This document shows positions 4,813-54,500 of a stretch of 64,000 nt of DNA, piece after piece. Made by a program: the position numbers and the translations under genes. The number at the start of each line of letters is the position of its first letter. Within the stretch, counting starts at the first letter, position 1. Under the pieces are notes generated by a model that made no database searches, was not told the origin of the DNA, and was given only the letters and a program-made list of their open reading frames with translations. The stretch is from Bolinopsis microptera (Eukaryota > Ctenophora > Tentaculata > Lobata > Bolinopsidae), in NCBI RefSeq assembly GCF_026151205.1, contig NC_087077.1:5480483-5544482 (forward strand). Direction: 5' to 3'.

Positions 4813-7800
4813 ATGAAAACAGCAGCTAGTGAATCAGTAAGTTGATTTTGAGAATTGTTATTATAATGCAAATGGTTATTATAATGGTTGTTGATAATGT
4901 AGGAAGGGAAAATTCCATACTCCTGGTAAAATAACTGGGTCTATAAGTATATCGCTGACGTGTTCCGCTCTTTCTTCAAGTGTTAATATCACTTTGTTTT
5001 TAATACTTAAAGTATTTAAAATATTTCTCTCGTTAAACACATAATAAGTGTTTGATATTTGTGTGACTAAATTTGTCCGTCATACCATTTTGGGATTCAT
5101 CATCTTTACTTTATTCCATTGAATCTATCACCTACTTTCTCGGTATTCAAAAAATCAGTAATCCCATCTAATAATAGTGTGCAACTTTACATACCACAGG
5201 CCAGGATACCCCCCCCCCCCCCCAAAATAACTAAATAACATTACACAGGCCAGGATACCCCCCCCCCCCCAATAACTAAATAACATTACACAGGCCAGGA
5301 TACCCCCCCCCCCCCCACCAATAACTAAATAACATTCCACAGGCCAGGATACCCCCCCCCCAATAACTAAATAACATTCCACAGGCCAGGATACCCCCCC
5401 CCCCCAATAACTAAATAACATTCCACAGGCCAGGATAACTCCAGAGTTCCTCAAGAAGAACTGTATTCTGCGCATTCCATCACAGACGGGCGAGACAAAG
5501 TACGAATGTGTGTTGTGTAAAACTAAAAGGCTCACTGATCTGACCCTGATAACTCATGTGGCGAACCTTAAGCACTCAGAGATTGTCAAGGTTGGTTATA
5601 AAATATAATTAGTTATTAATTAGGTATTAAGGGGTCGTTCACATATTACGTGATCACTTTTTGGACAATTTTTAATCTCCCTCCCCCCTCCGTAATCAGT
5701 TTTACACGTCATAGCTATTGTGTCAAAAGTACACTAGCGAAACCCCCCTCCTCCCTCGGCTGATTATGTAACATGTGAACGACCCCTAATTAGTAATTAG
5801 TAATTAGTAATTAGAGGATTCTTGAGTGGAGCGTGAGACCAGGAAATTGGAAATTGTAACAACTTTAGTGGTGTACTGTATGCTGTTTTATTTGTGGACC
5901 ATTTGAAAATTCTTAATTATATTATGTAAGATAACGACTAACGTTAAGTTTTTTTGTAAATTTGTTATCTTTCCCGACTTATATAACTGACTTTATACAT
6001 ATTTATGTTATATGTATTAATACGGCATTTCAGAGTTTCAAACAAATATGATATTTACTGTCATTAAAATTGGTGCCTTTAGTTCCTTGAGAACTGACCC
6101 CAATATCGTTATAATTTTTCATTGATATGCAGTGTAGTATTACGGAGTTTGATGTAAAGAGCTGAGGAAAAAATGTAACAGAGTCGATATATCTTAATGT
6201 TGCCATAGGGTTAAGGGTGGCAAGTCCCCAATTATCGCAGTCCGATAGTTTTACTGCCTCTCAATATAGAAACTCTAATAATTAAGCCCACAGAGACTAA
6301 CTAACCAATTAACAAACTAACTGACTAATTAACTAACTAACTAACTGACCAATTAACTAACTAACTAACTAACTAACTAACTAACTAACTAACTAACTAA
6401 CTAACTAACTAACTAACTAACTAACTGACCAACTAACTAACTAACTAAATAACTAACTAACTAACTAACTAACTAACTAAACCCACAGAGACTAACTAAC
6501 CAATTAACAAACTAACTGACCAATTAACTAACTAACTAACTAACTAACTAACTAACTAACTAACTAACTAACTAACTAACTAACTAAACCCACAGAGACG
6601 AGAAGATGGAGCTGACAAATACACAGACACCAAGTACCATGGCCGGTGTTTACAGCATAGCCTAGAGTGCCTCCTAGAAGATAGGTACGTATAGTAACTA
6701 GTAACCATGCTGCCTTTAGAAAGGTTTTGTGTGCAGATAGCTATAGGATTCATATCAGTTTGTTAGAATTGCTCTTGTACAGGCAACAAGGTTACCAGGT
6801 TAAGGTTTTTTGTACCCATGTAAGTAACTATTATTAATGTTGTTTTTTCTTTCATTATAAATTCTAACACTCATTGGATGGTTGGATACAATTATATTGA
6901 TTACTAAAGACGTGAAATGTGAATGAATTGTAGTGGTATGTGTCAGTATTATATGTACTACTACAAATTATGATAGTTTCCCACTAAAAGAACCTCCAAT
7001 TTACTGTAGGTGTGGAGGTGTAGAGGAGTACGAGAAACGAGTTGAAGTTGTCTCAGAGTTAGAGTCTATTTTCCAACACCAAAGCAAGAGTAAGAATTAC
7101 TTTTTGTTGTATTCTAACTTCAATTTACGTGCATTTGTAAAACATGAAATGTTAAAGTTTGCCCGTACTAACTAACTAACTAACTAACTAACTAACTAAC
7201 TAACTAACTAACTAACTAACTAACTAACTAACTAACTAACTAACTAACTAACTAACTAACTAACTAACTAACTAACTAACTAACTAACTAACTAACTAAC
7301 TAACTAACTAACTAACTAACTAACTAACTAACTAACTAACTAACTAACTAACATCTCTCTCCCAGGTTTCCCTGTATTGGAAGGAGTTGCTGTAGAGATA
7401 TACGGCAGCAGCGCGTTTAATGTCGCCCTTAAGACCAGTGATATCAACTGCTTCCTACGGGTGAAGGAGTACTTACTCTGTGTCAAAACAGTACGATCTT
7501 CTTTATCTTTTTAATTTGTTGTTAAAAAACTAAACATTCAATCCAATCAGTAGTTTCGACACCTAGTAACATATTGACCTATTAACCTAGTAACCTAGTA
7601 ACCTAGTAACCTATTAACCTAGTAACCTAGTAACCTAGTAACTTAGTAACCTAGTAACCTATTAGCTACACATTCCAGGTAACTGAGATAATCACTCAAT
7701 ATGACGAACTCTATGAAACACCCACCATAACCTCCGGTCACAAGTTAGTGAAACATTTTCTAGTTTTATTTATATTATTTTAATTTAATGTCTTATATTA

Positions 7801-51520: not shown

Positions 51521-54500
51521 TCACAAGTGTTGGTGGATGTGTTTCTGAAGGTTGCTAAACAGGATCCTGGTCCTTGGATCCTTATCTAAGCACCTCCGAA
51601 TGATGAACTCTACGGGATTATTGCTGGAAGAGAGAGATGGAGGGCTGCTACTTCCCCCACTTAGTCTGCTGAGTCTGCCTGCTCCCACCATGCAGTAATG
51701 CAGGACTGAACCGAACCTGGGGAGGAGAGGTGTTAGGGGCGAGGCTAAGGCGAGAACGCCACATGTTGTGCAGAGTGGTAGTAGATATAATCTTTCTCGA
51801 TCATTTAAGTGATCTATAAGTTAATCTACTTAAAATGAAAGCAATCAGCCGTCTAAACTCTTGCCGGAGGTGAAAGATAAGAAAGATTAGAGGGAATACT
51901 TACTTCCAGACTAGAGTCTGAAGAGGACTACAAACTCCGTATTTCTTAGCTTCCGGGGGCAGGTTACTGCTGTCTTTAGGTGCTTTATAACTGTTAAATT
52001 AATCTAGAGTTAGAGAGAAATGATTTAGAAACGAGAGATTCGGTGAGTGGTGGTGGAAACAATCAAGTTAGAAACTTAAGTCATGACAGCCATTAAAGTG
52101 CACTCTAGTTAGTCTAGCGTTACTTACGGTTCCTTGCTGTGAGATAGCGAGGTAGCATGACCGAATCCCACTAGTTTGATCTGCTTTGTCGCTGGGTTGT
52201 AGAGGATGTTCTCCTGGGACAGGTCTCGGTGGTCCACTCCGTTTACTACACAAGTGTTCAGAGCTGTAGCTAGCTGTCTTGCTAACTGTGGGGAGAGGGT
52301 GGGTTAGGAGGGGAGATTAAAAGGTGGGAGTTAATTCAAATTTAACTGATTTAGCTTGGAGATTTATATTTTGTTAATTTGAAATGACTAGTGGGAGAGG
52401 CTGGACAATAACTAAATCACTAGTACCTTGTAAAGCGAAGGGAGGTCCAGAGGACCGTGGGAGATAACGTAGTCTCTGAGAACTGAGTAACCCTCTGGAA
52501 ACTCCATAACCTGACGAGACAATACGATTAGACAGTGCGCTAGAATGCAATTAATTAATAAGTAGTCTGAGATCAGTTAACAAGTAGTCTGCAATCAGTT
52601 AATTGGTGATGTCTGAGAAGTATGAAGTAGGATGACGAATAATATCACATATTAACAGCGTGTCAACAAACTGGCGTGGGTTTAATTACACGACTCTAAC
52701 AGTATTAGCGTTGGAAACAACCCTGGTAACCCTGGTAACTCACCATAGCCCAACAACCCTGGTAACCCTGGTAACTCACCATAGCCCAACAACCCTGGTA
52801 ACCCTGGTAACTCACCATAGCCCAACAACCCTGGTAACCCTGGTAACCCTGGTAACTCACCATAGCCCAACAACCCTGGTAACCCTGGTAACTCACCATA
52901 GCCCAACAACCCTGGTAACCCTGGTAACTCACCATAGCCCAACAACCCTGGTAACCCTGGTAACTCACCATAGCCCAACAACCCTGGTAACCCTGGTAAC
53001 TCACCATAGCCCAACAACCCTGGTAACCCTGGTAACTCACCATAGCCCAACAACCCTGGTAACCCTGGTAACTCACCATAGCCCAACAACCCTGGTAAAC
53101 CTGGTAACCCTGGTAACCCTGGTAAACCTGGTAACCCTGGTAACCCTGGTAACTCACCATAGCCCAACAACCCTGGTAACCCTGGTAACTCACCATAGCC
53201 CAACAACCCTGGTAACCCTGGTAACTCACCATAGCCCAACAACCCTGGTAACCCTGGTAACTCACCATAGCCCAACAACCCTGGTCAACGTAGCAGCCAT
53301 CGTACCGTATTGTCTCTGGAGACTGACAAACAGTTCCATACACAAACTCAGCGGGCAACTTCCCTACAGTCTGCGGAGATGGTTACTGTGTTTATAGCTG
53401 ATCATAGAGAAAATTATTGAGGTGAGTATATTGGGGATATACAGATATTTTAAGTCTTGTGTCGTATTTTTATGAGCGACATTTGGGACAATTGACTGAC
53501 AAAAATTTAAAGAACGTAAAAACCAGAACAATAATTTTGGGTACTTACCAGGTCAATCTGATCCTGTTTCCGATTGCAGAATATCTTCTGAAGAACGGTC
53601 TCGTTGTTGAAGCACTGTACCACGTTTGTAGGAACGAACTTAATAGCGACCACCGATCTGTTCTTAACATGGGTGGCGAGGTGAACTGATCCTAGACGGC
53701 ATCTGGGGAAAGAGAGAGGGTATATTAGTGGTGGGGTAAAGATGATCTGTAGTAAATACTGAACTTCAATTAGCTGTGAAAAATACATAACACGTTTGAA
53801 ATTACGATTTATTTCAACTATAAATCACTCATCGCTGATAAAATCATTCCTGTTTAATGTTTATTATGCAATCAAGTTTCAGAAAGTTCTTGAAAGTACT
53901 AGAAAGTTCTCCATACCTGCTAATCTCGTTCAGAACAACGTAAGTATCAGCTACAATGTGCATTTTGTGTTCCAGATAGACTAGCTCGATCTTATTCTCT
54001 GAGTTCAGGAGACTGATGGGCTTCTTCTGAGGAGAAAATATTTTAGTGGGAGAAATTAAATTTACGAGTAAAATTCGGAGAGGCAAATGGGTCTTAAGAA
54101 ATACAGTAGTGGGATGTGGAAGAGTTTATAGGACTAGGAGCTATATGACATCAACAATAAAAATAAAGATACGGTGGGAAATAAAGTAACATGTGAAAAG
54201 ATTGACTAGGATAATAGGAGTTCACAATAGCTTGCGATTCAAAAAATCTACTATCATTTCATAGCCAAATTGTTGAAGAAGCATGTAGCATAAATACTTT
54301 CAGATAACAAACATTTATAAGCAAACTAACAGATGTTAAGATCGTCATGACATAGTAGGGTAATCAAACAGAAGTCAGTTAACTAAAAAGTACTAAGATC
54401 AAGTTTTGAATCAGTGCAGCACACAGACTAACGCTTTTAAACGAAAGTTTTGCTAATTTATTTATTAGATTACCATTAGCATACGAAACACCTTACAATT

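Follow-up and report, generated by a model that had tools for sequence, protein, structure and literature searches.

Tandem repeats carrying copies of exon borders in a terminal uridylyltransferase gene and other genes of the ctenophore Bolinopsis microptera

Introduction

The stretch of DNA considered here, 64,000 nucleotides from the ctenophore Bolinopsis microptera (positions 5480483-5544482 of contig C6, hereafter the window), contains a terminal uridylyltransferase gene and a protein kinase-like gene in which a number of exon borders, together with their splice sites, recur as copies in neighbouring repeats. Eight of the 84 exon borders counted in the window are spanned by such repeats under a fixed rule, and similar repeats occur at exon borders of unrelated genes on other contigs. 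They are probably minisatellites of the type named mirages in lancelets, which would result from ordinary local duplication followed by array growth in short introns and would be tolerated since the outermost splice site persists.

The terminal uridylyltransferase (TUT4/7-like) gene extends over 4813-45550 of the forward strand and comprises 32 coding exons, giving a joined open reading frame (ORF) of 1646 amino acids that is devoid of internal stops when the outermost splice sites are joined. Its product contains the Pfam domains MTPAP-like_central, TUTase, PAP_assoc and zf-CCHC, corresponding to zinc knuckles and Cid1-type domains. The window also harbours the protein kinase-like gene (54026-51521, reverse strand; Pfam Pkinase, 2.8e-20), for which seven exons were modelled, and a NIPSNAP gene identified by Pfam (2421-4084, forward strand), which neighbours the uridylyltransferase gene. 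Junction counts in the window cover these three genes, corresponding to 42 introns. Exons are numbered according to the present models; a preliminary description of the same DNA uses the same numbers for exons 2 and 3 and numbers one lower from its exon 8 onward, and its kinase exon 4 is the third of the seven modelled kinase exons. The genome searched amounts to 264,652,675 bases in 232 contigs, the Bolinopsis genome being smaller than that of the lancelet.

Copies of exon borders in the window

A border was taken as spanned when a direct repeat with a score of at least 20 runs across it and a copy occurs within 1.5 kb. According to this rule, spanning concerns two acceptors (exons 2 and 3) and six donors, five in the uridylyltransferase gene (exons 11, 15, 18, 20 and 28) and one in the kinase gene, whereas eight Markov-shuffled windows give an expectation of 0.15 of 84. 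A segment-based rule also yields eight spanned borders, with the donor of exon 26 in place of that of exon 11.

The copies are organized in distinct ways depending on the border. The acceptor of exon 2 (border 5428/5429) belongs to an array located at 5189-5437 and made of six copies, with units of 42-49 bases and 9 exon bases within the array, while the ACTA-type array at the acceptor of exon 3 (6279-6599; border 6595/6596) contains three copies of the acceptor core and shares 4 exon bases. Among the donors, that of exon 11 (12457-12567) is duplicated, with 11 exon and 14 intron bases present in two copies 86 bases apart, and that of exon 15 (17150-17390) occurs in two copies 214 bases apart, the inner of which reads AT at the place of the GT. 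The donor of exon 28 (39416-39778; border 39442/39443) occurs in three copies with 25-27 exon bases each. At two other donors the copies are widely separated: the end of exon 18 with its donor (20548-21207) recurs 622 bases downstream, with short arrays and an inverted-repeat element in between, and the end of exon 20 with its donor, including 34 exon bases (30933-31783), recurs 795 bases downstream with an ACTA array in between. The inverted-repeat element, recognized by eye at 20638-21113, consists of GGTCCAAGGGGAACTTTGGGG... and its reverse complement. In the array of the kinase gene (52716-53289, reverse strand; border 53265/53266), a 36-base unit presents 14 identical donors and the frame remains open throughout.

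Other cases are weaker. Besides the 4 exon bases of exon 3, only 3 are involved at the donor of exon 26, a 32-base array of three copies at 37387-37479. The donor of exon 9 with its 76-base array (10887-11132; GTGAGTWTAGTGACT three times) and the array following exon 23 (34357-35090; 24-base unit) share essentially intron bases alone. An 11-base array (9753-9825), uncounted in the preliminary description, abuts the donor of exon 8. All the copy numbers given in that description (exons 2, 3, 9, 11, 15, 18, 20, 26 and 28, and 14 for the kinase) were recovered. The array that it described as starting at a donor, that of the present exon 23 (its exon 22), does exist and begins 6 bases inside the intron; its count of ten or more borders holds if the weak and abutting cases are included, and falls to eight under the fixed rule.

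Border repeats in other genes and local origin of the units

Kinesin exons were located throughout the genome with the Pfam profile PF00225 (109 matches), and border-spanning repeats occur in five of the 18 kinesin regions, among 26 taken, that allowed the placement of one intron or more. They include a two-copy donor duplication (locus L021), a 13-base donor array together with an acceptor copy interrupted by an array and a further array 5 bases past a donor (L037/L039/L041), a unit of 53 bases, about 29 of them exonic, with 8 genome matches (L051), an acceptor unit of 49 bases with about 21 exon bases (L026/L028), and a donor array spanning its border (L024). The last two stay outside the formal count, their partner exon not having been found. 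In one myosin gene, a 48-base array begins at the donor. None of the 15 chaperonin introns contains a spanning case, and one chaperonin array stops 3 bases short of the acceptor. Two adjoining myosin-head segments at locus L045 (2712-3186), which resemble each other and align with the same part of the profile (positions 105-167 and 102-167), were considered as a border array and rejected, since they look like alternative exons and probably are.

Taking 96 introns together, the 31 introns with a repeat family show a median length of 770 bases versus 178 bases for the 65 introns without one.

The border units searched for are confined to their own loci. With up to two mismatches allowed, a genome-wide search retrieved 14 matches for the kinase unit, all in its own array and without mismatch, three for the exon 28 unit, exclusively at its own locus, and eight for the kinesin unit of contig C2, all in its own array; none of these three units has a copy at another locus. 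The exon 2 unit, searched for exact matches only, was found exclusively on C6 and on a second contig, C59, discussed below. These four units, being local only, are thus neither mobile elements nor dispersed satellites. The suggestion that a process shared across the genome is at work is supported by the border-spanning repeats of unrelated kinesin genes on other contigs and with the local origin of three of the units.

Placement of the repeats relative to exon borders

Whether the repeats favour exon borders depends on the null model. In addition to the window, an independent set of 54 introns (108 borders) from 23 regions was analysed, in which four borders are spanned. When repeats are placed uniformly within the intron, edges at 5 bases or less from a border number 9 in the window versus 1.25 expected, and 7 in the independent set versus 0.67. 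Although the associated P values are very small, this model was rejected as the main test, because it forbids a duplication from crossing a border. If a fixed overhang past the border is allowed, the eight spanned borders compare with 3.0, 5.1, 6.7 and 9.2 expected at overhangs of 20, 40, 60 and 100 bases, respectively.

The most trusted model places a collapsed unit anywhere touching the intron, borders included, using the length of the border-spanning unit where there is one, because a straddling duplication leaves the outer junction intact and repeat-free introns have such a short median length. According to this model, spanned borders number 8 versus 3.7 in the window (P 0.015) and 4 versus 2.9 in the independent set (P 0.32), and borders either spanned or lying at 5 bases or less from a repeat number 9 versus 4.6 (P 0.022) and 7 versus 3.4 (P 0.012), respectively. 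With the shortest unit, the expected numbers of spanned borders become 2.5 for the window (P 0.0018) and 2.6 for the independent set (P 0.23). The border preference is thus strong when repeats are confined to the intron and about two-fold when straddling is allowed, and about half of the border spanning needs no preference at all. The preliminary view that random growth should not prefer exon borders was too strong in this respect, as straddling placement yields 6.7 of the 12 spanned borders.

The residual bias of about two-fold toward borders is possible. It is based on 44 repeat families, ten of which are independent, with four of those ten in one gene; moreover, the window was selected as striking and some of the independent introns were chosen by hand. 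The introns delimited manually or with a relaxed rule are those of L037 beyond the first-placed ones, two of L020 and those of the chaperonins, and withdrawal of the two hand-set repeat-bearing L037 introns leaves three spanned and two abutting borders in seven families. Left out of the independent set were exon pairs that were skipped or could not be refined, the duplicate loci L019 and L023, one low-score refined kinesin pair, locus L050, two weak introns of L049 and a few repeat-free kinesin introns obtained with the relaxed rule. The L045 intron 3147-3779 (score 7.2) was also left out, its donor lying among the alternative exons; this omission slightly favours a border preference because the intron holds an interior repeat block (3520-3587), whereas the omission of L026/L028 and L024 has the opposite effect.

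Two other comparisons were abandoned. Repeat coverage, which reaches 9.5% of junctions, 19.2% of intron positions and 0.7% of exon positions, gives an apparent depletion at borders; as interior coverage is inflated by array growth, this comparison was not retained as the main test. A version of the null model merging the arrays of neighbouring introns, with 11 spanned borders versus 5.76 in the window and 7 versus 3.23 in the independent set, was discarded.

Reading frame and use of the splice sites

In the uridylyltransferase gene, eight donors were examined in this respect (exons 9, 11, 15, 18, 20, 23, 26 and 28), and an in-frame stop is encountered 1-73 bases beyond each of them, so that retention would truncate the protein. 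The kinase array is in frame, its units consisting of 36 bases except for two longer ones of 45 and 81 bases, and any extension caused by the use of an inner donor would measure a multiple of three bases. The exon junction encodes the sequence VMEFPEGYSVL, which we take to be the kinase hinge, and an insert at this place would probably be harmful. Judging from these frames, the outermost splice site is probably the one used in RNA.

Copy number on a second contig

Contig C59 (38,459 bases) is collinear over its last 16 kb with positions 1-11896 of the window, with an identity of about 91-98% in long pieces, and presumably represents the other haplotype of these first 11.9 kb. Sixteen of the 17 exons sought are present on C59, 13 of them at 100% and three at 98.6-99.4% identity; the remaining one, exon 11, is located beyond the overlap with C59. 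In the uridylyltransferase gene, C59 has longer introns 1, 2, 4 and 9, the differences amounting to 147, 640, 1472 and 655 bases, respectively. The acceptor core of exon 2 occurs in 6 copies in the window and in 10 copies on C59, while the cores of exons 3 and 9 occur in three copies on each contig.

Origin of the border copies and alternative explanations

The preferred scenario would begin with a local tandem duplication of some tens of bases, produced by slippage, unequal exchange or the repair of a staggered break, that happens to straddle an exon border. With units of tens of bases and introns of about 178 bases, a randomly placed duplication will often do so. The copy in contact with the exon, i.e., the first donor or the last acceptor, would preserve the frame and splicing could keep using it, while the remaining copies would become additional intron. 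The unit may later have been multiplied by slippage or unequal exchange, and other repeats or an inverted-repeat element may have settled between the copies, as in exons 18 and 20 and in a kinesin gene on contig C12, so that introns of about 180 bases would have reached lengths of hundreds of bases or more. Both this duplication mechanism and the near neutrality of the copies are inferred. In favour of the scenario are the frame that is open with the outermost sites, the stops soon after the uridylyltransferase donors, the restriction of the searched units to their loci, the unequal lengths on the two contigs despite nearly identical exons, the greater length of introns with a repeat family, the share of spanned borders that straddling placement yields, and the resemblance to the amphioxus mirages.

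Several observations weigh against this scenario. When the window and the independent set are pooled, the straddling model gives 12 spanned borders versus 6.7 expected (P 0.014) and 16 spanned or abutting borders versus 8.0 (P 0.0009), and these expectations decrease to 5.1 (P 0.0013) and 6.6 (P 0.0001) if the shortest unit is used. In six alignments (408 cells) representing five arrays, the splice cores are free of substitutions, versus about 12 expected from the other columns, which neutral copies need not show; two of the alignments carry most of this expectation, and the 13-base array of L037, in whose consensus no core was found, does not enter this count. Finally, the inner donors of the kinase array could add multiples of 12 codons or more to the protein.

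A mutational process aimed at exon borders, in which slippage, template switching or staggered-break repair would be favoured by the splice-signal sequence or by transcription, is rather unlikely, even if it is the most serious competitor. It would account for the excess of repeat edges close to borders under the intron-confined model, for the pooled excess of spanned or abutting borders that remains once straddling is allowed, and for the predominance of donors over acceptors (12 versus 4 cases). However, spanning alone does not exceed expectation significantly in the independent genes, and the conspicuous window, the few independent families (four in one gene) and the partly hand-picked introns all temper the excess.

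Selection retaining spare splice sites, by which inflated introns would stay spliceable, appears very unlikely. The substitution-free splice cores are what this explanation predicts, and the preliminary description had put it forward; yet the invariance stems mostly from two of the six alignments, many control windows of the others being equally unchanged, and in the kinase array the 182 other cells are invariant as well. Moreover, the second copy of exon 15 has no GT, and homogenisation between copies yields the same pattern. Errors of assembly or collapsed repeats, to which low-complexity arrays including C runs are prone, are extremely improbable, since the arrays of window positions 1-11896, the part for which a second contig was seen, are present there too, although they differ in length and sequence (10 versus 6 copies for exon 2). 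Elsewhere, other genes also have border arrays, and these contain the exact exon ends of the gene concerned.

Relationship to known border repeats

The closest counterparts are the mirages of amphioxus, minisatellite-like tandem duplications across 5' or 3' exon borders that are described for Adh3, the globins BflGb6 and BflGb9, troponin C and PGBD5 (PMC3087553, PMC3902484), PGBD5, Adh and TnC being presented as further lancelet cases in the second report (PMC3902484). Their units measure from about 10 to 160 bases, haplotypes differ in copy number and many copies retain AG or GT (PMC3087553, PMC3902484); the BflGb6 haplotypes, for example, have 6 and 3 units, and reverse transcription-PCR suggested normal splicing (PMC3087553). 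Somatic instability has also been reported for the Adh3 mirage. The Bolinopsis repeats resemble mirages in that the unit crosses the border (8 of 84 borders in the window, 4 of 108 in the independent set), in that both donors and acceptors are concerned (six and two in the window, and the acceptor of kinesin L026/L028), and in the copy number of the exon 2 array, which would differ between haplotypes if C59 is allelic. They differ from them by the ctenophore lineage, by the involvement of ten junctions of a single gene if weak cases are counted, and by copies that an array separates (exons 18 and 20, and the kinesin of C12); in addition, normal splicing is predicted in Bolinopsis from the open frame.

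Two other systems are more remote. Human genes of segmental duplications contain variable internal tandem repeats, minisatellites with units averaging 30 bases that alter the structure of genes, some of them at exon borders (PMC2812944). They often lengthen exons or make new introns, whereas here the exons are unchanged and the introns alone grow. The model of Rogers, in the form cited in PMC3087553, creates introns from duplicated AG/GT sites; there, as here, the duplication carries splice signals, but the duplicated segment becomes a new intron, whereas in Bolinopsis existing introns acquire the copies. No report of border repeats of this kind in ctenophores was found among the papers listed by searches of the openly licensed PMC library or by a word look-up in two ctenophore genome papers.

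Other features of the window

Intron 19 of the uridylyltransferase gene contains a tandem duplication (24355-25629 and 27350-28534, reverse strand) with two very similar ORFs of 424 and 394 amino acids, which contain different numbers of the in-frame TCACTG (Asp-Ser) unit. Introns 6 and 19 encode three small proteins that look alike and begin in the manner of a signal peptide (LDTPD/NTPDG... CARTCS; 8336-8722, reverse strand; 22142-22576, forward strand; 30035-30469, reverse strand). A C-rich repeat (CCCCCCTATTCCCCCCACAT) of about 1.1 kb (36035-37177) occupies most of intron 25, and an ORF of 514 amino acids lies antisense within the last intron (41187-42731, reverse strand).

Significance

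Mirages, a kind of repeat already known from lancelets, apparently occur in a new lineage and are dense in the region analysed here. A bolder proposal can be formulated, namely that border-seeded duplications, arising at about twice the frequency expected at random, are the main way in which ctenophore introns grow. Mirages would then have evolved convergently, in two animal lineages far from each other, as a means of inflating introns throughout the genome, and would leave ready arrays of splice sites, at least one of which (the kinase array, whose 14 in-frame donors are spaced by at least 36 bases) would be able to give proteins of graded length; this proposal is conceivable and doubtful at present. 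The occurrence of mirages in several ctenophore genes suggests that they are no peculiarity of lancelets, and they offer a simple route to longer introns without harm to the gene. For annotation and variant calling, they serve as a warning that many perfect copies of a splice site may adjoin a single exon. They also constitute natural material in which the choice of the spliceosome among identical sites can be studied.

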